This document shows, piece by piece, positions 3,418 to 25,796 of a stretch of DNA of 26,215 nt. Made by a program: the position numbers and the translations under genes. The notes under the pieces were generated by a model. The model ran no database searches and was not told where the DNA came from. It was given only the letters and a program-made list of their open reading frames with translations. The DNA is taken from IMG/VR virus record IMGVR_UViG_3300009637_000006, positions 1 through 26,215 of that record; one strand, given 5' to 3'. This DNA is from a virus. Numbering within the stretch: the stretch's first letter is position 1; each line of letters opens with the position of its first letter.

Positions 3418-5098
3418 AGATTTCCACCGTAATAGTCTTTGCCGTGCCGTCGGGCGAAGGCGTCCATTTGATGTAGCCGCCAGAGCTGATCGTCGTGGTA
3501 CTTCCGGGGGCGATCGCCGTCGCAAAACCGCTGGCACAGGTCAAAGTCGAGGCCAATAGGTTGTTCCCGCTTCCGTCCGTGATGGTGATGGTCGTACCGG
3601 TCCCCGCGTCCACTGAGCACGTTGCGCCCGTGATTGTCCAGGTCACCCCGTCTTTGTTCTGGCAAATCTGATTTGTGGCGTAGGTGCCCGTCGCAAGCGC
3701 CGCCGTTCCTCCGCCGACGCCGTCGCCGCAGTACCATTTCTTGTACTGCGCAGGCACCGAAGGAGCCTGATAAGTCGGCATCGCACTAAGGCCGTTGCCG
3801 GTGAGAGGATCGCCGACGGGCCCTGCGGGCAGGCGTACAACGTTGCCGCCCGGTCCGACGATGAAAATGTCGCCCACTGTGAACGCGCTGGAATTCGTCG
3901 TCGGCTTGAGCGCCAGGATCCCAGCCTGCATGTTGTAGAGGCCGCCCGTCACAAAGGTTATCGTGTCGGAGAGGCTTCCGGCGCCACCCTTGGTCCCGTA
4001 GAAACTCGTGTAGCTAAGCGCCCCATCCACATATCCGGAGGTCTGCAGCGCAATATAGCCGTTTGCCTCCGTCATGGTCGTCACGCCCGCGGCGCGATTG
4101 CTGCCGGAGACGAAAATCAGGTCATTGGCTACCGTCGTCGTGATCGATCCGGTCGACAGGGTTTGCGAAGAGGCAAAAGTGTGGGTCGCTGAGGCTATGG
4201 TGTGGGCATCGATGCAGGAAGAGTTAGCGACGTTGGCAAATTCATAAGCCGACACGATGTTGTAGCCGTTAGTTACGCCGTTGATCGTGGCCGTCGTAGA
4301 GCCGCCCACCGCGCCGCAGGCCACAAACTGCTGTATATCGAATTCGCCGGAGAGCAGATTGCTGTTGGCGAGGGTGAAGGTGTCCCCCTGGGCGTCGCTG
4401 ATTGTGGGCGTGCCGGTGCCGTCGTTGTGCATGAGCTCGACGACGAGCGCATCGCCTGGATTCACGTTCGCGGTCAGAGTGATCGAGGTGCACGGGGGAC
4501 CGCCGCTCGTGCAGTCAGCCACCAGCTTGCTTTGCACCAGCGCGGGAACCACATTGCTCCCGGTGATAATCCCGCCTTCGTTCACGTGGTAGTTGGTGCC
4601 GTCTGACCAAATCGAGACGCCCATCCCTGGAATCAGCGAGCCGGTGCCGAGCGCTACGCCCAGCGCGCCCAGCAGGCTCGATCCGCTCGTGGGGAGCACG
4701 GAAAACGCCGCAAGGCCCTCATTCGAGACAAAAATCATCCACGGCGCGGCAGGCACAGAGGTGGGCAGCGTGAGTCCGCAAGCCGCCGCGCAGTTGAACA
4801 GGATGGCCTTGTTATTGTCCCCTGAGACGGCCGTGTAACTGCCGGTCTGAACGTTTACGCCGTTCAGGCCGCCCCCGCCCCCGCCGCCGCAACCGCTAAA
4901 GACGCCGGCGGCCGAGATGGTGCATCCGGTCGCCGTTTTAGGCGCGTACTTTCCAGTCGACTGGCCGACCATGATCTGACCGGCCGACGGGGGCGTGCTA
5001 CTGCCGGTTCCGCCGTTCGCAGGCTGCTGGACCTGACCCCAGAGGAGCGCCGGCCAAAGAACGACTAAACCGCCAAGGATTCGCTTAAAACTCGCCAT
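3404..5098 (-). CDS. Tail-fibre-like multidomain protein with signal peptide
   Basis: From ATG 5098 the product is 564 aa. Residues 1-22 (MASFKRILGGLVVLWPALLW) look like a Sec signal ending at G-Q. Then comes ANGGTGSSTPPSAGQIMVGQ (28-46), the NGGTG...GQ motif typical of phage tail fibres; a beta-domain at about 83-175 (SYTAVSGDN, GLTLP, SDGTNYHV); a second domain at about 185-400 (PGDALVVEL, SDAQGDTFTLA, SAYEFANV); and a C-terminal Cys-containing domain at about 452-564 (KKWYCGDG, VTWTITGATC, GYIKW). A fibre or host-recognition role is inferred from order and motifs. It overlaps the previous gene by 34 bases. The ribosome binding site is weak; an upstream in-frame start at 5134 exists but would bury the signal peptide. 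Confidence 0.65.
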   Translation of the reverse strand: MASFKRILGGLVVLWPALLWGQVQQPANGGTGSSTPPSAGQIMVGQSTGKYAPKTATGCTISAAGVFSGCGGGGGGGLNGVNVQTGSYTAVSGDNNKAILFNCAAACGLTLPTSVPAAPWMIFVSNEGLAAFSVLPTSGSSLLGALGVALGTGSLIPGMGVSIWSDGTNYHVNEGGIITGSNVVPALVQSKLVADCTSGGPPCTSITLTANVNPGDALVVELMHNDGTGTPTISDAQGDTFTLANSNLLSGEFDIQQFVACGAVGGSTTATINGVTNGYNIVSAYEFANVANSSCIDAHTIASATHTFASSQTLSTGSITTTVANDLIFVSGSNRAAGVTTMTEANGYIALQTSGYVDGALSYTSFYGTKGGAGSLSDTITFVTGGLYNMQAGILALKPTTNSSAFTVGDIFIVGPGGNVVRLPAGPVGDPLTGNGLSAMPTYQAPSVPAQYKKWYCGDGVGGGTAALATGTYATNQICQNKDGVTWTITGATCSVDAGTGTTITITDGSGNNLLASTLTCASGFATAIAPGSTTTISSGGYIKWTPSPDGTAKTITVEIYGTK

Positions 5099-5611: not shown

Positions 5612-8600
5612 TTAAGCCGCGCCAGGCACGCCGGTGGGCACGTAAATGTATGGTGTCACATCGGCCAGAGACTGGAGCGCAGCGCCGAAGGTGTTGAACG
5701 TACAGATTTTGAAATAGAGCACCTGGCCGATGTAGGCAGGCGGCATGGTCATCTTCAGGATTCCCGCCTGGCTCGGGCCCACCACGGCGAAGCGCATGCC
5801 GGCCGGATGGTCGATCCCCGGGCCGCCCGAATTCGGCGCCAGGAAGATCGAACGGCGCAGGGAGTTCCCAACGCCCGTCGCCTCGAGAGTGTAGGCATTG
5901 GGGCCTGTGAGCGTGGCCACCGCGTAGCTCATGAGTTCGTAGCCGAACCCGGCGCCGCTCGGCGAAGCCACTGCCGAGCCGGCGACCTCGATGGTGCCCG
6001 CAAGACCCACAGGAGAGCCGGCGACGTTCACCTGGAGCGGATCGCCTGCAGCCACGATCGTGCCGTTCACGTCGACAATGAGCGCGCCGCCCTCGACGTA
6101 GCACGGTACTTCGAAGTTGTTTTCAACCGTTGTGGAATAGGACTCAAGCGCCCCGTCCGATTCGGCCAGGTTGACCTCGAGGTTGTTCGTCGAGTCTGGA
6201 TCGGCAGCGGCTGGCCAGTCGGCAGTGACCTCGCCTGTGACGGCCGAGCCGATCACGATGTTCGAGTTCGCGTCTGCGCCTCCAGGAGCCGGGTTGTAGC
6301 TCACGCCGCCATCGGTCGAAACGAAGATCTGCGCGCCGCCATAGTTCGCGTCGTTGCTCGAAACCACCACCCAGATCTCATCGCCGGCCGAGCCGGGATA
6401 GAGGCCCGGCGTCGGCTCGAAAATGATCGGCGCGTTGGCATTGCCGGCGCTTTGCTGGGGATTGACCGGGGTCGGCGCGGGCGTGGTCGCGGGGAGCAGC
6501 GCGGGTGCGCACATCCCGTAAACGAAGGGCTCGGCCGTCACGGCGAAGCTGCCGTCGTCCTGTTCGTTGTAGCTGGTGATTCGGACCGGGACCCCGATGA
6601 TGCCCTGGAGCTCATCGGTGAGCGTCACGAGATCCATGGGCGAGAGCAGCGACCAGCGCGCGGTCGTTCTGAAGCTCCACACATCGCCGCCGTACTGATT
6701 GCGCCGCACTTGGATCCCGAGAATGGTGCGCGCGATCGAGGGATCCTGGACCGCATTGTTGGTGACCGGATCATCCTTGCGGACCCCATAAAGCCCGAGC
6801 GTGGCCGGATCCGGCGTCTGCACGGTGACCTGGGCATAGTTCGCGTTGCGGTCGACGCACTGCATCTGAAGCACGTTCGGCAGATCGATGCGCACTGCGG
6901 TATCGAGCGAAGGGCAGTCCGAGAGTACGAAGTCGCCAGCATCGGCGTCGAGCTCGGCGACGGGCCCGGCGGCCGAGGGCGCCTGGTAAAACGCTCCGTT
7001 GCCCGCGGCCGAGACCTCGGAGTAGGGATAGAGGTAGAACTTGGCGCCTAGAAACACCGGGGCGGCATTGGCAGCGCTGCAGAGCGTCTTGATCCAGTCC
7101 GACGCCGCCGACTGCGAATTCATCGTGAGCGAGCCCCAGAGGCCGTTGGCGCGGCATTGCGCGCGCACCAGGTCAAAGGACGGGATGTCGACGAAGTCCC
7201 CGAGCGGTCGTGGATAGGGCACCGGCTCGGTGGCCTTGATGGCGAGCAGACAGATCGAAGCCGGCGAGCCAGCTGCTCCCGCAGCCGCGAACGCACCAGG
7301 TGAGTGAATGATGCGCTCCTGCATTTGGAATGTGCTCGGGGACCGCCCGGGGAAGTTCGCCGGGGTCACCGCGCGCCACAGGGGCTCGTCCGCGACCGGT
7401 GAGGCCCCGCCACCGGGATAAAGCGAGATGGCCAGCAGGTAACCAGGCAGGCCCTCGGCGACGCTGCTAGAGGCCTGCGCGGGGCCGCTTGAGGAGGTCG
7501 CCACGGCGTCGACCGTCTCGCCGCCTAGATAGCCCGGGGGAATGCTGTACGAGACAAGCAACCCCACCTGGGTGACCACCATATTCCCGGAGTAGTTCGA
7601 AAGCTGAACGGTGGCGTTGAACTGAAAATTAAAGCTGGCGGCCTCGAGCGCAGGCGCCGTCGTGCCGAAGCTGGGGCCGGTCCACACCCCAGAAAATGGC
7701 GGCGGCGGGAAAGAGCCCGATGGGACGCTGGCAGAGAACTCCAGTGAGCTGTTGTCAGTCGTGAGCGTCGAAACAAAGGTCACGACCGGCTGGATGGCGG
7801 TGACCACGACACCGGCTGGCAAAGCAGGCCACTCAAATCCACCCCATTCAAGGACCGTGTGCACATTCTCGTAGAGGTTGAACGGCGGGTAAACGCCGCT
7901 AACTGCCATCATCCCGCCGTCCACCGTTGCGCTGGCGGTGGCAGTGTTTGTGGGACCGGCCGAGGCGCTGGCGCCGCTCGTGGTTGGCGGAACGAAGATA
8001 GTGCTTCCGGTGGAAGCGCCTACCCCGCCGATCTCAAGGATTCCCATGCCCCAGGGAGCCGACGCGCCGGAGACGGTGACCGTGTTCGGACCCCCGACCG
8101 CATAGGCGTACCAGACCTGGTAGCCGAGCCCGTCGCCATAGACCTTGGTCCAGGTTTCGCCGTTCGTCGAGCTGATCCCGAGCGTGCCAGAGCCGGTGGC
8201 CGTCGCGATGAGAATATTGCCGGCGGCGTTCGGCATGTCGTACATCATCGGGGGCAGACCCACGGTGGCGCTGGCGTCGACCTTCTTCTGGATCGTGCCA
8301 GGCAGGTCGTAGCTCGAGAGCCCGCGCTCCATCTGGGTCGCCGCCGGCTGGGGCTGCACGGAGGTCTCGGCCGCGATCGCCGCCTGCGCCATGCCCGACT
8401 TATAGATGTCCTCGATCATGTCCACAAAATCGGCATCCCCGCTCGAGTACACCCCCCACTTAAATGCAACCTCCGGATTCAGCTGCGGGATCGCGCCCGA
8501 GGCCCCGAGGTCGAGTTCCGAGCTCTGCAGGCCCGCGAAATGTGGATAAACGATCTGCTGAGAGCTAAGGCCGGCGTTCGCGTACTCGTCGCCCGAGCCG

Positions 8601-9759: not shown

Positions 9760-10695
9760 TCAGACCGCCTGCGTTGGATTTGGAACGAACGGGAACCCGG
9801 AGTATCCCTCGTCGCCCAGGTTGATCGGCGCCGTCGTCGAAACATAGAACGTATCGACACCGGGCGTGGGCGGCCAGGGCAAAGGCGAGTAGATCACGAA
9901 CTCGGAATGGTGGTTGCCGTCGCCGTCGGTCCACTCGCCGTTCTGGCCGATAGCGGACCAGGCGCCGGCAAGCGTTGCTCCCGGACCGGAAAGGAAAACC
10001 ATGTAGCCGCCAGAGAAAAGGTCGCCCGAGTAGATCCTTCCAGCCGATGGCGACGTACAGTCCGCCACGATGTAGGTCTCGGTCGACGGCCGGATGCAGC
10101 TGAAAACCGGAATAGACGGGTCGCCCGGTGGCAAGGTCACCGCAGCCGTCGACGCGAGCGTGTTGGTCACCTCTACCACGGTCGAGGGCACCTTTTGCTT
10201 GAGCACGTCCAAATAGCTCTTGGTATTGAAGATCAACTTGTTGCGCGCGATTTTGCAATTCTGGACCCGGCCGCCGTACCACTCTGCGCAGCCCAGAGTG
10301 TCGGCGTCGCCGGGCGTGGGCATGAAGCACCGAAGGATCAGCGCCGGCCAGTTGTCATAAAAATGCTGGGCGGCCAGCTGGTAGGGAGATGCCGTCGCGG
10401 TGCTCGCCGTTTTGGAAGCCTGCGCGCTGGCCCCAGGCGACCAGGTGATGGCCAGGGCCTGGGCGTCAAGCCCCACCTTCGCCTCAACGCCGGCGCGCGA
10501 TACCACAGCCGGATTGAAGAGCCCATAGGGCTTGTAGAGCACCGGAGCCTCGTGGTTGGTGAGATAGAGCGCGTTGGGGCTCTCGGGCGGCCCGATGAGG
10601 ATAAGATCGCGGATGATCGGATCGTCGGTCGAATTCAGGTAGGCCTGGGTGGCGACCGTCGTGTCCGAACCATCGCCGCCGATCGTCCGCCTCAT
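9760..10695 (-). CDS. DUF2163-type tail tip protein (GTA gp13-like)
   Basis: From ATG 10695 (ATGA overlap with the distal tail gene) the product is 311 aa. Its middle part has the features of the DUF2163 / phage BR0599-like family: IIRDLILIGPPES (near 28-40), LRCFMPTPGDADTLGCAEWYGGRV with the family's G-R-V element, and NKLIFNTKSYLDVLKQKVPSTVVE (near 155-178). Cys residues at CAEW, NCK, FSCI and ADCTS may make disulphides or a metal site. The C-terminal half (TYIVADCTSPSAGRIYSGDLFSGGYMVF, then HHSEF) matches the C-terminal BR0599-type domain. In the GTA-like module it links the distal tail ring to the hub. A longer in-frame start exists but lacks the coupling overlap. Confidence 0.75.
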   Translation of the reverse strand: MRRTIGGDGSDTTVATQAYLNSTDDPIIRDLILIGPPESPNALYLTNHEAPVLYKPYGLFNPAVVSRAGVEAKVGLDAQALAITWSPGASAQASKTASTATASPYQLAAQHFYDNWPALILRCFMPTPGDADTLGCAEWYGGRVQNCKIARNKLIFNTKSYLDVLKQKVPSTVVEVTNTLASTAAVTLPPGDPSIPVFSCIRPSTETYIVADCTSPSAGRIYSGDLFSGGYMVFLSGPGATLAGAWSAIGQNGEWTDGDGNHHSEFVIYSPLPWPPTPGVDTFYVSTTAPINLGDEGYSGFPFVPNPTQAV

Positions 10696-11846
10696 GAGGG
10701 CACCGGCCTTGCAGTCCGGAGCACCAGCGTCCCGGATCCGTTCTGCGATTCTGAGCCGCCGACGGTCCAATAGCCGCCGCCCTGCCCGGCTGGTGGCTGG
10801 CCGGCCGAGGAGCCGATGCCAGCAAACTTCTCGAAGTCCTGTGAGTCGGCGTCGAAGCGCACCCGAAAATAGAAGTGAAACTGCGCGGTAACCGGCGCCG
10901 CGGGGCCGGCGTAGTAGCCCTGGTCTTCCCAGATCAGCGTTCCCGCGCCGTCGGGCGTGGCGCCGCCGGCGTCATTGAATGCAGGGGCTGAGGCCCCCGA
11001 GGTTCCGGCGCTGCCCCCAGCGCTGCCCTGGTCAGTCCAGACCGCCATTGTGCCGCCCGTGCCGTCGTTCGTGGTCCCCCCGGAATCGTTGAAGGTGGGA
11101 ATGGTAGCGCCCAGCGTGCCAGCGGTCGTGATCTTCTGGATATGCCCGGCCGGATCGACGATCTCGTAGCCGAGGGCAACCACGGCAAGGGCAGACCAGG
11201 CCCGCGCCGTTGCCTTCTGGATGTGACCGGCGGGGTCGAGGATCTCAGTATTCAGCGCATAGACATGCATGGCTGCCCAGGCGGGGGCACCAGGCCCCCA
11301 CTTGAGCACCATGCCCAGCCAGGAGTAACCAGGGATGGCAAGGCCAGGACCATCGAGGGTGTACTCATTGGCGCCGCTGCCGGCAGTGGCCAGCGTCCCA
11401 TCAAGATACACCGATATGGCGCCGTTGAGGTCCGTGATGTCCTCATAGCTCGCGCCGTCGAGCGTGCGCTGCACCGGCGAGTAGTAGGCGCCAGCCCCAT
11501 CCGAAACCAGGGCAAGCTCTGCGAGAGGCGCGTTCGGCGAGCCAGAGACCAAAGCCGGCCCGACATAATTGTCGTCCGGATCCGTGTAAAGGAACGGCGC
11601 GGCCGAGCCGTACTGATCGTTGAAAAAGCCCATGAGCGTCCGGAGCTCGCTCACCGTCGTGAAGCTGCCCCAAAAGAAGTCGTGCAGGAAATCGAAAATG
11701 AGCGTCCAGGTCCAGATTGGATTCACATACTGCGGCAGGCGGACTTCGTAGCCGTTCGACCCCTCTTCGTTGAGCGTTTTGAAGCCCGGCGCCTTCAATG
11801 AGGTATACGTGAGGCCAGGCAGGCTCGGAAATACAGGCAGGCTCAT
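10692..11846 (-). CDS. Distal tail protein (DUF2460 / GTA gp12-like) with inserted repeats
   Basis: The N-terminus MSLPVFPSLPGLTYTSLKAP, then FKTLNEEGSNGYEVRLPQY and PIWTWTLIFDFL, is the signature start of the DUF2460/TIGR02217 distal tail protein family, which forms the ring between tube and hub. The family C-terminal strand FYFRVRFDADSQDFEKF is at about 326-341. Between them (about 187-312) is an insertion not present in simple members: DPAGHIQKATA (204-214) and DPAGHIQKITTAG (231-243) repeat, then two copies of a P-x-F-N-D-x-G-G...D-G...W-x-D-x-G unit (250-274 and 288-310). Such units are common in phage tail proteins and may be carbohydrate-binding. GGAGG before ATG 11846; ATGA overlap with the tape measure gene. 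Confidence 0.8.
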   Translation of the reverse strand: MSLPVFPSLPGLTYTSLKAPGFKTLNEEGSNGYEVRLPQYVNPIWTWTLIFDFLHDFFWGSFTTVSELRTLMGFFNDQYGSAAPFLYTDPDDNYVGPALVSGSPNAPLAELALVSDGAGAYYSPVQRTLDGASYEDITDLNGAISVYLDGTLATAGSGANEYTLDGPGLAIPGYSWLGMVLKWGPGAPAWAAMHVYALNTEILDPAGHIQKATARAWSALAVVALGYEIVDPAGHIQKITTAGTLGATIPTFNDSGGTTNDGTGGTMAVWTDQGSAGGSAGTSGASAPAFNDAGGATPDGAGTLIWEDQGYYAGPAAPVTAQFHFYFRVRFDADSQDFEKFAGIGSSAGQPPAGQGGGYWTVGGSESQNGSGTLVLRTARPVPS

Positions 11847-14287
11847 GCGAAGGCCTCCGGGCGAAGCATGGACTTGAGCCGGTTGATGGTATGCGCGGTC
11901 TGTGCCTCGTGCATCTCCTTGGTGGGCGCACCCCCGTAGTTGTTGGTCTGGTGGAGATGCGCGACTCGGCTGCCCCCGTTGTTGACCAGACTTTCGAAGT
12001 TCGAGGTTTGCGATGGCGAGAGCACCCGCTCGGCGCTCCCCGAGGTGTTAAAAGCGAAGCCCATGTGCGGCATCATGCCGCCGGTGTCCATGACGGCGTA
12101 AGCCATGGTCTCGGCGAACTGCAGCGCAGCCATCGCCGGGGCCTCGGGCGGATTGATCGCGGAGTAGTACGCCATCGCTCCCGCCGCGGCAACACCGGCG
12201 TCGCTCGAGACCATTGCGACGTTTGCGGTCTTCTGGACTGCAACCTGGGTGGCCATCCCCGAGACCTGCAGGAGCTTATCCATCGCCCACATTTCTGCCT
12301 TCTGGAGAATCCACCTCGCCACGAAATCCACAACCTGCAGTTCCATGTCGCCGAGCATATGACCGAACGCCTGGCCTGCCGTCTGCGACTTGGTCGCCCA
12401 CTCATTGAAGGCCCGGGTGAAGTCGGCATTGAACTCGTTCGCGGCCTTTTTGTAGGCCTGCTCCATTTTGGTCGCTTCCTGCTGAACGATACGTTCCCGT
12501 TCGAGCGCGGCGCGCTGCGCCTCCTTCGTCATCTGATCTTCGAGTTTTTTGTACTCGATGGCTTCCTTTTCACCAGCGATCGGGTTAAAAAGCCCCTGCT
12601 CGGTCTTGAGCGCGCCCTGGGTCGTGGCCTCGCGGAGCTTCAGCGCGTCGAGCAACCGCTGCTCGGCCACCCGGTGCGAAATAATGCCGAGCTCTTCCTG
12701 GCCGCGGATCTCGACCTGGGTGCGTTCGAATTCCTGGTCGGCCGCCTCAATCAAAGCCGCCGCGGTCTCACGGGCTGCGTTGATCTGCTCTTCCCGGGTG
12801 CGGTTGGCGTTTTCGACTTCGACCCGGGTCTGCTCTTCGGCGCGCCGGCGGGCGGCCTCGTCCTCCTTCTGCTGGGCTTCAAAAGTGGCATTCATCTGCT
12901 CCTTGCCGAGCGCGGCGATCTTTTCCTTGGCCTGCGAAAGGGCCACCTGGTTCTCCAGCACACGAAGGGTCTCCCGTTCGGCCGCCGTGCCTTCCTTTGA
13001 GGTCGTGGCCTTGAGGTTATTGAGCTCGATTTGTTTGTCCATCGCCGCGATGATCTGCTGCTCGACGCCAAGCTGGGCATCGTCGGCATGCGCGGCCTCG
13101 ATCTGAGCGCGGGCGATCTGCTCGGGAAGATTGTCGGAGGCAGCCCTGCCACCACCAGTCTTTCCGGCGCCGGTCAGTTTTTCGTGCTCCTGCTGGGCAT
13201 CGCGCAGGCGCATCTGCTCCTCGATGGCCGCGGTTTCCTTCTTCGTGTCCGCGATCAGGAGTTCGGTCGCGGTGACTTCGTTGTTAAGGGGGGTCGGATC
13301 GACGCTCATGGTCTGCTGGGCGTGCAGATCCAGGAGCTTCTTCTCTTCCACGGCCGTGAAACTTTTCGCCTCGGCGAGCTGACCCTCGAGCGCGACCGCC
13401 TTCTCCATCCAAAGCGCGTGCTGCTCGAGGTCGACTTGTTCCTGGCGCGTCCCGGTGGTACTCGTCATACGCTGCAGCGTTGAGCCGGCCAGCGACTGCA
13501 TCTTCAGAAGCGACTCCTCCTTGTCGATCAGCCCCTGTAGCTTGGCGTTCATTTTGTCGGCTTCGACCAGAGCGTCGTCGATCGCCTCTTTGATGGCGTT
13601 GGGGTTGGGCTTGTGCTCGAGCTTCGCGTTGGCCGCCTCGATCTTGTCGGCCTCGAGCGAGGTTTCGTCAATCAGGGTGCGATAGGATCCGTCGAGCGAG
13701 GAGAGCTTCTGCTCGAACTCGCGCGCGCCCTCGCCGCCCATGTCGAAGGCCTTGTAAAGCGCCTCGCCAAGGTCGTAAAGCAGGAACACGCCCGCGGCGA
13801 AGATTGCCACCGGGACCATGGCGGCCAGCATCGGGCCAACCACGGAGGATCCCGCGGCAACTTTTGCCAGGCCCGTCTCCATCATGTAAGCCGAGCCGGT
13901 CATAGCCCCCATGCTCACCTTCGCCGCCTCCATCGCCTCGGAGTGGCTGTAGGTTGCCACGGTGTCGACGCGCTGGGCGGCAGCGTTCGAAAGAGTTGCG
14001 GCGGTGTTTGCTTCCTCGCTGGCGGTGAGCTGCTGGACCGCGGCGGTGGCCATCGTACTCGCTTGCGCGTATTCCTGGATGATCGCCGCGGCCTGGGCGT
14101 TGCCACCCTCAGCGGCGGCTCCCAACTGAACCTGCGCTTCCGTAAGCGCCTTCGTGGCGGCGGTGGCCTTGGCCTGCGCTGCGGCGATCTGGTCGGCAGA
14201 CGATTCGACGGCTGCCGTAGCCTGGGCGACCGCGGGCCCGACCCCGCTCGCGTCGGCTGTGATAATTACTCGGAGTTCGTCCGCCAT
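11843..14287 (-). CDS. Tape measure protein
   Basis: 814 aa, directly downstream of the frameshifted chaperone genes, the conserved place for the tape measure. The sequence is mostly long helix and coiled coil: Ala-rich heptads at 20-110, a hydrophobic stretch at about 146-172 (VGPMLAAMVPVAIFAAGVFLL), then charged coiled coil at about 200-620 (many EEQ, AERE, RRRAEEQ segments). The end (about 620-814) has a second amphipathic region (FTRAFNEWATKSQ, VVDFVARWILQKAEMWAMDK), which may cross or contact the membrane. It fixes tail length; at about 1.5 angstrom per residue, the family rule predicts a tail near 120 nm. GGAGCGGGA precedes ATG 14287, and the gene overlaps the T frame by 22 bases. Confidence 0.85.
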   Translation of the reverse strand: MADELRVIITADASGVGPAVAQATAAVESSADQIAAAQAKATAATKALTEAQVQLGAAAEGGNAQAAAIIQEYAQASTMATAAVQQLTASEEANTAATLSNAAAQRVDTVATYSHSEAMEAAKVSMGAMTGSAYMMETGLAKVAAGSSVVGPMLAAMVPVAIFAAGVFLLYDLGEALYKAFDMGGEGAREFEQKLSSLDGSYRTLIDETSLEADKIEAANAKLEHKPNPNAIKEAIDDALVEADKMNAKLQGLIDKEESLLKMQSLAGSTLQRMTSTTGTRQEQVDLEQHALWMEKAVALEGQLAEAKSFTAVEEKKLLDLHAQQTMSVDPTPLNNEVTATELLIADTKKETAAIEEQMRLRDAQQEHEKLTGAGKTGGGRAASDNLPEQIARAQIEAAHADDAQLGVEQQIIAAMDKQIELNNLKATTSKEGTAAERETLRVLENQVALSQAKEKIAALGKEQMNATFEAQQKEDEAARRRAEEQTRVEVENANRTREEQINAARETAAALIEAADQEFERTQVEIRGQEELGIISHRVAEQRLLDALKLREATTQGALKTEQGLFNPIAGEKEAIEYKKLEDQMTKEAQRAALERERIVQQEATKMEQAYKKAANEFNADFTRAFNEWATKSQTAGQAFGHMLGDMELQVVDFVARWILQKAEMWAMDKLLQVSGMATQVAVQKTANVAMVSSDAGVAAAGAMAYYSAINPPEAPAMAALQFAETMAYAVMDTGGMMPHMGFAFNTSGSAERVLSPSQTSNFESLVNNGGSRVAHLHQTNNYGGAPTKEMHEAQTAHTINRLKSMLRPEAFA

Positions 14288-23232: not shown

Positions 23233-23484
23233 TCAAGCCCTGTTTTTTAGAGGTACCGGCGGCATCGGCCGGCGCCGGTGGTTGCCGTTTCCGTTCGACT
23301 CCTCGGCCGGCTCGCGCAGCCTGAAAACCAGGACCGCCTCGATGCGCGCGCCGAACCCGCTGCCGACCTGGTGCGAGCTCATGGCCACCAGATCATAATC
23401 CTCGGTGAGTGCCCCGAGTGTGCTCTCGATATCTCTGATCAAACAGGTTTCTACGACGTGCGGGGCTTTGGGAGCAACCATCAT
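23233..23484 (-). CDS. Small unknown protein, 83 aa
   Basis: Starts at ATG 23484 with an ATGA overlap to the portal gene. The product has an alpha/beta pattern in its first 55 residues (HVVETCLIRDIESTLGALTE, YDLVAMSSHQVGSGFG, RIEAVLVFRL) resembling the small DUF4177-like fold, though similarity is only at pattern level. The last 28 residues are Glu/Asn then Arg/Pro-rich and probably disordered. No function can be given. Confidence 0.55.
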   Translation of the reverse strand: MMVAPKAPHVVETCLIRDIESTLGALTEDYDLVAMSSHQVGSGFGARIEAVLVFRLREPAEESNGNGNHRRRPMPPVPLKNRA

Positions 23485-25796
23485 TCCTCTCCGGCGATTT
23501 TAGTGACCGTAAGCCAGCACCGGCAATTCGGATGAGCCCCCGGCGCGTAAATGAACGGCGCGAACTGATAGCCAGCCGGGACCGGGCCGAGCGCCGAGAA
23601 GCTGGCGCAAAGCGCACAGCAACCCAGGTCCATGACGGTCCACTGATATTCGAGAATCTTGCCCGAAGACATCCACGAGCGCAGGTGGCCAGAAACCTGC
23701 TGCCTGGCGATCTCATTGTCGGCGATCAATTCCCCGTGCTCCGGGGTCCAAACCACGCTGACCTGAAGAACAGCCTCGAGCTGCTGGGGCGTCCAGCCCT
23801 CCTCGATGGCCTGTTTCAAAGTGGCCAGAACGCTTTCCTTGGCCGTGGTCGAGATCGCCCAAGCCGGCGCCGTGGCCTCGGTAAGCGAGCCGTCCTCCTC
23901 GAGGTCGAAGCCCACCATCTCCGCAGCGCGCTCGTCCGCGGCTTGTTTGGCCGCCGGAAGCGCTTCGGCCAGGGTGCCCTGGAGCGACGCGCCCAGGTTC
24001 GCCGCCGCCTGGTAGGCTCCGGCGTGCACACCCTCCTCGGCCGCGATTTCAAGATAGGGCGCCGAGATCCCGTAAAGCGTCTCGTAGTCCCAACCGAGCA
24101 GGGCGATGAGTTCGGCGAGGCGCCGATCACGCTCGTCGGTCGAGTCCCTGTCCTTGAAAAGTGTTCCACGTGAAACCTTTAGGTAGGCCGCGAACTCCTG
24201 CGCGGCCTTCTTCGAGACCCGCATCTTCTGATCGGCCAGGAACTTCTTCAACTGGCGCGCAAAGTCGTTTCTGGTCTGCCGACTGCGCGGGGTCAGATCC
24301 CCGGCCCGCGCCTTCAAGGTTGCGATCTTGCGAACCTTTACCGGCGCCGCCCGCCCGGCAATGGGGGGCTCGTCCTCGTCCTCGTCTTCGTCGTCGGGGC
24401 CAGCGCCTGGCTTCGCGGCCGGCTTTTCGCCGATCGACATCCAACCCGTGGCCGTCATGCTGCCGAGCTCATTCGCCTGGGGCTCGGGCCGCGGATCGTC
24501 GCCGCGCGCCTCGCGGGTTTCGTTGATGCTGTAGATCATGTTCTTTACATAGAGCGCGTCGACCGTCGCCTGCTTCACGGGGTCCATCTCCCGCTCATCC
24601 TGGAAGGCGAACTCAACGTCATCGATCTTCATCTGCCGCTCGATCACCTGGCCGTTCATGACGTTCTCGATGTGCTTCAAATAGGGCTCAAGCCCCTCAA
24701 TCTGCGCGACATCAGAGGATTCCTTCGCCGTGCCGCGGTTTACCTGTTTGATCAGATTCTGGGGCGAGATCGAAAAAGCGTAGGCAACCACCCGGGTCAG
24801 GTAGTCGTCGGTGACGTCCACCAGGGCCTCTTGCTTGGTGAGCAGGGGCTCGTGTTTCGCGTCGGGGATCATGATCATCCGCCGGCGCATTTTCAGATTG
24901 CCAGCCAGCATCGAATCAAACCATTTCTGAAAGTCCTTGATCTGCTGAGACGTCCAGCCGTCCGGCATCGGCAGCAGACCCTCAGGCACGTTGCCCGAGA
25001 CGTAGAAGTCGCGCAGGAACTGCTGGCGGTTAGCGCCGATCGAGAGCGTCGTGATGATCTGTTCGACGGGCCCAAAGCCCCAGCGTGAGTCAACCCGGGG
25101 ATTCCGCGGCGAATAGATGAGTTGGTCGACGGTGTACTTTTTCTCGGCGGCCGAGGCGGCGATGTTGGCCGTGGGGATCCCGAGAATGATCTGCTGGTAG
25201 GCCGGCGACGGGGGCTGCGGAATGAACCCGTGCTGATCGAGCAAGGGTGTGATGGTAGCCCCGGATACCAGGCGAAGCGAGAGCAGATCGCCGCCGATGG
25301 ATTTGATGGGATAGATACAGGGCGCATCAAAGACCAGAAGCTGTTCGAGCCACATCCGGATCCAGAGATCGAAGCCGTGCACGCCGTCGGGGAACTTGAG
25401 CAGGTTCGTAACCTTGGCGACGTTCGAATTCTTCAGCTGCCGATCGGCCGCGCTCTTCTTCGTTTCCCCAGGCTGGGCCTTGACGCGGATCACCCACGGG
25501 CGGTTGACCACCTGGTCCTTCCGGGTCTCAATCATCAGCCGACAAAGGTCGAAGGAATTCGAGACGTTCCAGAGCTGGGGGAACTTAATCGCGACGTCGC
25601 CGCGGGGCGTGAACTGCAGGTTGATGCCAGGAGTGAAGTCCCACTGCCGGATCCCGACGCCAAGCTGCAGCGTGGGCCGGATGGGGTTCTGAGGGCCGGC
25701 CCAGGAGCCAGGCTCGACGCCCTCGATGAGATTGCCAGTGGGGCGGAAAACCGGAGAGAACGCGTCGGCGATCGTCTTGACGATGCTGGTGGCCAT
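23481..25796 (-). CDS. Portal protein fused to a Mu gpF/SPP1 gp7-like head morphogenesis domain
   Basis: 771 aa with GGAGGAG ahead of ATG 25796. Residues 1-450 are portal: NVSNSFDLCRLMIETRKDQV, PCIYPIKSIGGDLLSLRLVS, DQLIYSPRNPRVDSRWGFGP with VEQII, YVSGNVPEGLL, and YAFSISPQNLIKQVNRGTAK. An acidic linker (PDDEDEDEDE, 467-476) follows. Residues about 490-771 are a MuF-type domain ending LGCCALCASF (724-733) and APGAHPNCRCWLTVTKI (751-767), the C-x-x-C...H-P-N-C-R-C signature of minor head proteins. The portal is the DNA gate; MuF proteins are injected or help assembly. Separate genes are usual, so the fusion fixes a 1:1 copy number. A parS-like sequence lies within the coding region (24162-24177). 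Confidence 0.85.
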   Translation of the reverse strand: MATSIVKTIADAFSPVFRPTGNLIEGVEPGSWAGPQNPIRPTLQLGVGIRQWDFTPGINLQFTPRGDVAIKFPQLWNVSNSFDLCRLMIETRKDQVVNRPWVIRVKAQPGETKKSAADRQLKNSNVAKVTNLLKFPDGVHGFDLWIRMWLEQLLVFDAPCIYPIKSIGGDLLSLRLVSGATITPLLDQHGFIPQPPSPAYQQIILGIPTANIAASAAEKKYTVDQLIYSPRNPRVDSRWGFGPVEQIITTLSIGANRQQFLRDFYVSGNVPEGLLPMPDGWTSQQIKDFQKWFDSMLAGNLKMRRRMIMIPDAKHEPLLTKQEALVDVTDDYLTRVVAYAFSISPQNLIKQVNRGTAKESSDVAQIEGLEPYLKHIENVMNGQVIERQMKIDDVEFAFQDEREMDPVKQATVDALYVKNMIYSINETREARGDDPRPEPQANELGSMTATGWMSIGEKPAAKPGAGPDDEDEDEDEPPIAGRAAPVKVRKIATLKARAGDLTPRSRQTRNDFARQLKKFLADQKMRVSKKAAQEFAAYLKVSRGTLFKDRDSTDERDRRLAELIALLGWDYETLYGISAPYLEIAAEEGVHAGAYQAAANLGASLQGTLAEALPAAKQAADERAAEMVGFDLEEDGSLTEATAPAWAISTTAKESVLATLKQAIEEGWTPQQLEAVLQVSVVWTPEHGELIADNEIARQQVSGHLRSWMSSGKILEYQWTVMDLGCCALCASFSALGPVPAGYQFAPFIYAPGAHPNCRCWLTVTKIAGEE
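24162..24177. promoter_or_regulatory. parS: parS-like ParB-binding palindrome inside the portal gene
   Basis: TGTTCCACGTGAAACC matches the bacterial chromosomal parS consensus TGTTNCACGTGAAACA at 15 of 16 positions if N is free; the core GTTNCACGTGNAAC is perfect. It codes for Val-Ser-Arg-Gly-Thr (portal residues 541-545) using GTT TCA CGT GGA ACA, a run of A/T-ending codons in an otherwise G/C-ending gene, as expected if the DNA word itself is selected. No parA or parB gene is in the window. ParB binding is inferred from sequence only. Confidence 0.5.

Follow-up and report, generated by a model that had tools for sequence, protein, structure and literature searches.

A perfect host-type parS site in the portal-MuF gene of a phage: a candidate target of the host segregation protein ParB

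In Bacillus subtilis a parS site alone reportedly lets the chromosomal ParABS system stabilise a plasmid, a result said to have been obtained by Lin and Grossman in 1998. With respect to phages, the literature that we searched yielded a single statement on the use of host ParB, which concerns phi29: a passage in PMC9437464, citing Meijer et al. 2005, has the entrapment of the phi29 genome in spores depend on Spo0J, the ParB of Bacillus. Apart from the phi29/Spo0J case as given in that passage, we came upon no account of a virulent phage that uses the chromosome-segregation clamp of its host. The phi29 genome (L297) contains four perfect copies of TGTTTCACGTGGAACA, dispersed over the genome at 10446, 15904, 17244 and 18761, and a further site with one mismatch at 11797. 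The copy at 10446 lies within gene 10, which codes for the connector/portal, in the same frame and with the same V-S-R-G-T peptide as the site presented here, and several phi29-like phages likewise have a V-S-R-G-T parS in their portal genes. The preliminary description of the DNA under study, which was aware of no established function for a parS inside a portal gene, thus needs correction: the perfect site in phi29 gene 10 belongs to a phage for which that passage of PMC9437464 reports Spo0J-dependent entrapment. Below we analyze a comparable site in a viral stretch of 26,215 bases, hereafter the window.

The parS core and the portal-MuF gene that carries it

The core, GTTCCACGTGAAAC, occupies positions 24163-24176 of the plus strand, just where the preliminary description had placed it, and reads GTTTCACGTGGAAC, its reverse complement, on the coding strand. 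It is a full match to GTTNCACGTGNAAC, the core of the chromosome-type site TGTTNCACGTGNAACA, and the enclosing 16-mer at 24162-24177, TGTTCCACGTGAAACC, departs from the latter at one outer base. This is the sole perfect copy of GTTNCACGTGNAAC in the window; none was recovered in 100 dinucleotide shuffles (0/100), and the count expected in a window of such composition is about 0.001, in agreement with the earlier estimate of around one window in several hundred. As the scan covers many windows, this expectation does not on its own settle whether the site arose by chance; that question is settled by the comparative test across relatives given in the next section, which we regard as the decisive evidence. 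The word CACGTG is scarce in these GC-rich phages: the window has only two copies, at 4583 and 24167, with the second forming the center of the parS.

The gene bearing the site (23481-25796, minus strand) encodes a portal-MuF fusion of 771 residues, whose identity as a portal is indicated by matches to Pfam Phage_portal (PF04860; 2.3e-17 over residues 131-431) and to the PHROG 2662 portal family (5e-68). It forms part of a structural module on the minus strand of the window, together with further head and tail genes, including one with a tape-measure match. On the gene strand, the codons at the site are AAG GTT TCA CGT GGA ACA CTT (residues 540-546), of which GTT TCA CGT GGA AC constitutes the core and specifies V-S-R-G-T (residues 541-545). 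In the alignment, which shows indels in this region, the peptide is placed in a variable linker that connects the portal domain (approximately residues 1-435) to the C-terminal MuF-like part. The preliminary description was right both in that the site is written in A/T-ending codons and in that the gene otherwise prefers G/C-ending ones: the four successive codons GTT TCA CGT GGA (24165-24176, minus strand) are rare A/T-ending forms, kept across relatives, in a gene with a GC3 of 0.81, and the probability of the core given the peptide and the codon usage of this gene is 3e-5.

Conservation of the DNA word among portal relatives

Relatives of the portal were gathered in two scans of viral contigs and range in identity from 100% down to 57-58%; all are metagenomic fragments, and those with an intact site represent four clades only. 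These are the window's own species, L139/L140 (88-89%), L141/L142 (86%) and L148 (74%), and the differences between their cores fall at the N position of parS. In L141/L142 the core takes the form GTTCCACGTGGAAC, with Pro in place of Ser, yet NCA is retained; across the group Ser, Pro and Ala are swapped at the site while the subsequent CA stays.

The codon test was performed on one representative of each of these four clades, i.e. the window and relatives at 74-88% amino acid identity. For identical residues, the other clades keep only 51-67% of the codons used in the window, and just 25% of the 284 amino-acid-invariant columns with 4- or 6-fold degenerate codons have the same codon in all four representatives. 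At 364 columns every representative has a free third base, and a mere seven of these columns share the same A or T throughout. The site, with its run of four adjacent codons, supplies four of these seven, an outcome that was reached in 0/20,000 permutations, and the adjoining Thr and Leu codons are variable. When computed from the peptide and the codon usage of each gene, the probability of the core is between 3e-5 and 1.6e-4 per gene. Since the homologues hold the synonymous codons at the site while varying them elsewhere, these alignments indicate that it is the DNA word, and not merely the peptide, that is under selection. This was the main claim of the preliminary description, which would have been contradicted by freely varying synonymous codons at this place in homologous portal-MuF genes; the alignment displays the opposite.

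Some other members of the group have a decayed, changed or lost site, and the site is accordingly not essential in the group. The core shows one-base decay in L143-145 and L146, with GTGGCACGTGGAAC and GTTCCACATGGAAC being the decayed forms found among the relatives; a symmetric variant, GTTCCGCGCGGAAC, stands in place of the core in L153 (62%); and L147 and L150-152 lack both the site and its peptide segment. When mapped on the portal tree, the label of the site requires three changes, which may correspond to one gain and two losses. At the homologous place in L157 (G017, 12719-12732), the symmetric GTTCCGCGCGGAAC could be either a product of decay or a site adapted to a ParB of another specificity. 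In L147 an intergenic ATTCCACGTGGAAC, with one mismatch, was seen at 6397-6410, just upstream of a small HTH-like gene and some 2 kb from the portal gene on its upstream side; with the portal site lost from the same contig, this is a possible case of site turnover.

Candidate readers of the site and parS in other phages

No ParB_N domain was recovered at E<=0.01 in 21 related records and no HTH_ParB above the cut-off in the relatives searched, all of them fragments that could have a ParB elsewhere, and the ParB_N profile overlooked one divergent ParB-like domain. The relatives jointly span most of a gene map of about 40 kb (L155/L156, 39 kb; L157/L158, 40 kb; L159/L160, 35 kb). Two of them encode an N6/N4 DNA methylase to which a ParB-like domain is fused (L156:9769-11148, plus strand; L159:4973-6451, minus strand), a known type of fusion (PMC12704722). 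These genes adjoin the small terminase region, lying directly upstream of it; the fusion was not seen at this place in the window's own species, and no parS-reading HTH was seen in it in the two relatives. Because the relatives are without a detected parS-binding ParB, the host ParB would be the likely, and the simplest, reader of the site. Thus, of the two sources of ParB considered in the preliminary description, the host and the phage itself, the former is favored by what the fragmentary relatives encode, with the binding itself being a prediction.

Neither tyrosine integrase (PF00589) nor resolvase (PF00239) was detected in 10 records of relatives, and an integrated prophage is accordingly unlikely; a search for integrated relatives in bacterial genome contigs returned none with the portal and only distant matches with TerL. 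The TerL relatives (47-56%) come from metagenome-assembled genomes (MAGs) of Alphaproteobacteria, Rhodospirillales and Caulobacteraceae, along with one of Chloroflexi, and the best portal matches among isolated phages are those of Brevundimonas phages; the host is probably, on weak evidence, an alphaproteobacterium. These Brevundimonas phages, with portals 35-37% identical, showed no parS over the 24 and 41 kb that were read. A perfect parS located 0.7 kb from TerL in a Caulobacteraceae contig (L169) is flanked by genes that look chromosomal and was taken to be a host parS. As for further hints at the host in the window, CtrA boxes, which would point to regulation as in alphaproteobacterial phages, show no excess, and tRNA genes were not found. 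Separately, the early region of one relative encodes a stand-alone response-regulator receiver domain protein (L159:10981-11403, plus strand), with similar proteins in G012 and G020, and a small protein with the repeated peptide SDADRWALWSGL is found at L137:2-190 (minus strand) and L159:9625-9918 (plus strand).

Beyond the portal relatives, the 16-mer TGTTTCACGTGAAACA is present in at least 120 viral contigs, as against five and zero for two palindromes composed of the same letters. In 120 viral contigs retrieved with a degenerate parS pattern, the outer base that the pattern leaves open was T at 98 of the 135 sites (73%) versus 26% expected; this T bias of the candidate sites is as in genuine parS. 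A two-site parS query in BLAST matched 363 isolated-phage records, a count that includes related records and matches that are not all perfect sites, versus one for a control of nearly the same letters. The 100%-identical rows in an even sample of this list come from phages of Bacillus, Gordonia, Microbacterium, Arthrobacter, Pseudomonas, Stenotrophomonas, Acinetobacter, Listeria, Enterococcus and Lactobacillus, from microviruses and from unassigned phages; no Enterobacterales phages are among these rows. Escherichia rV5-like phages rank high in the same search, but the example read has an imperfect site, TGTTTCACGTGGAAGA, which fits their host group, as this is one without chromosomal ParABS.

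The ORFs bearing these sites are ordinary phage genes, such as those for the terminase, portal, polymerase and lysin, and the V-x-R-x-T frame is used in 72/115 site-bearing ORFs of at least 150 residues and in 33/44 of at least 400 residues. Host contamination was rejected as the main source of the parS-positive viral contigs, given that the overlapping ORFs match phage families and that ParB_N was found in none of the 30 records tested. At the lower end of the size range, the 5.9 kb inovirus L299 (PQ006135.1) has six perfect copies of TGTTTCACGTGAAACA, at 636, 663, 1415, 2858, 4097 and 5629, five of which are located just after or between genes, and the microviruses L301 and L304 have perfect sites too; genomes of this size are too small to accommodate their own ParABS. 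Between five and 12 perfect cores each were also observed in the stretches examined of four other viral contigs (L067, L186, L213 and L284); in the record of L067, the one of the four that was checked, ParB_N was not detected, and HTH_ParB is seen only below threshold.

The occurrence of the parS tag far above chance in so many unrelated phages suggests that phages borrow ParB, the DNA-segregation protein of their hosts. A broader proposal, on which we are evenly divided, is that non-integrating phages (tailed phages, microviruses and inoviruses) would have convergently acquired orphan host-type parS sites as a widespread device, which recruits the host ParB clamp, and via it ParA/SMC, to phage DNA, and is coded mostly as a tolerated V-[S/P]-R-[G/E]-T; the window would then be one instance, from a phage group that is probably alphaproteobacterial.

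Possible roles of the site and comparison with known systems

As to its role, we consider it moderately probable that the site functions as a host-type 'orphan parS', present in one copy, which loads the ParB of the host on the genome of a non-integrating phage and serves in partition. That it has been selected as a target of ParB is very probable, and we place less confidence in the partition role specifically. The phage would have placed its parS in the indel-tolerant portal-MuF linker, where, in this frame, the sole cost would be the mild peptide V-[S/P]-R-G-T. Once the cell is infected, the host chromosomal ParB is predicted to be loaded at the site in the form of a CTP clamp, to slide into the flanking DNA, and to connect the genome of the phage with the ParA/SMC of the host. 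Most likely, the phage would benefit from the positioning or segregation of its non-integrating genome with the host nucleoid, by which that genome may be inherited or kept under slow or deferred lysis, as stated for phi29 and Spo0J in the passage mentioned above. Points that speak against this partition reading are the single site versus the four of phi29, the decay, change or loss of the site in some relatives, and the fact that entrapment in spores could not as such occur in a host that does not sporulate.

ParB titration, late-gene silencing and the organization of packaging share their first step with the partition reading. In the first of these, the replicating parS-bearing genomes would act as a sponge for the limited host ParB, disturbing host segregation or division to the benefit of the phage. 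Such titration requires the same recruitment of host ParB, might be aided by a copy number that could become high in a phage without a detectable integrase, and is in keeping with small phages with many copies, such as the inovirus with its six perfect sites in 5.9 kb; we nevertheless deem it unlikely, as in its pure form it would favor many sites per genome, whereas the window has one at a fixed place. We likewise assign a low probability to the idea that ParB/SMC at the site organizes or regulates phage DNA, be it by silencing late genes, by compacting concatemers for packaging or by protecting the DNA from nucleases. Compatible with such a function are the location of the site inside the head/packaging module and the occurrence of parS elsewhere, both in the MuF fusion of Arthrobacter phage Beagle and in genes for the terminase or the portal in other phages; however, by our estimate terminase and portal genes show no clear over-representation once their length is considered, the phi29 sites are scattered through the genome, and the near-match in one relative is intergenic, 2 kb upstream.

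Very improbable, in our assessment, is an operator for a non-ParB regulator of phage or host, or a conserved RNA hairpin. One relative does retain the symmetric GTTCCGCGCGGAAC, and the near-perfect intergenic copy of another is just upstream of a small HTH-like gene, but the word agrees with the general consensus for parS, down to its free N, its ACGT center, which would be the unpaired loop of a hairpin, is invariant in the four clades, and unrelated phages contain this word in vast excess. Least credible and strongly disfavored is chance combined with protein constraint, whereby a V-S-R-G-T conserved for the protein happens to be spelled as parS: there is but one site, decayed or absent in several relatives, and V, R, G and T are largely conserved wherever the segment exists, but the rare A/T third bases persist in four clades next to varying Thr and Leu codons, account for four of the seven such columns in the entire gene, and are accompanied by a CA that is kept through changes of Ser, Pro and Ala.

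The conservation of a parS in a non-integrating phage whose host group differs from that of phi29, and the very large excess of such sites in ordinary phage genes, lead us to propose that host ParB is probably a common target of phages. This has a bearing on the persistence of non-lysogenic phages in slow-growing soil bacteria and gives reason to watch ParB and SMC loading during infection; the site also offers an experimental handle, in that a single synonymous change abolishes it with the protein untouched.

In terms of known systems, the chromosomal ParABS centromere has the identical 14-bp core GTTNCACGTGNAAC, but there the sites form an origin-proximal cluster near parAB, whereas the site in the window is single, phage-borne and embedded in a late coding sequence of the portal, with no neighboring parAB and no parB detected. 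As in the phage-plasmids P1 and N15 and the extrachromosomal mycobacteriophages, ParB-parS would serve the maintenance of a phage genome; those phages, however, have their own ParA and ParB and a private parS, none of which was detected in this phage group, where the ParB-like domains of two relatives are DNA methylase fusions. Arthrobacter phage Beagle provides a parallel in the form of a perfect TGTTTCACGTGAAACA, in frame as V-S-R-E-T, within a MuF fusion (MuF-protease) gene, but it is a 70 kb phage of an actinobacterial host with a separate portal gene. With respect to phi29, the differences are its four perfect sites, its sporulating Firmicute host and the Spo0J dependence reported in the passage cited at the outset, as opposed to one site, a probably alphaproteobacterial host and a portal-MuF of a different family in a phage known from sequence alone. 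What the two have in common is a non-integrating genome (here, no integrase in 10 records), the lack of a parS-binding ParB of their own (here, in fragment records and with a divergent ParB-like domain missed by ParB_N), and host-type parS, with one site in the portal/connector gene.
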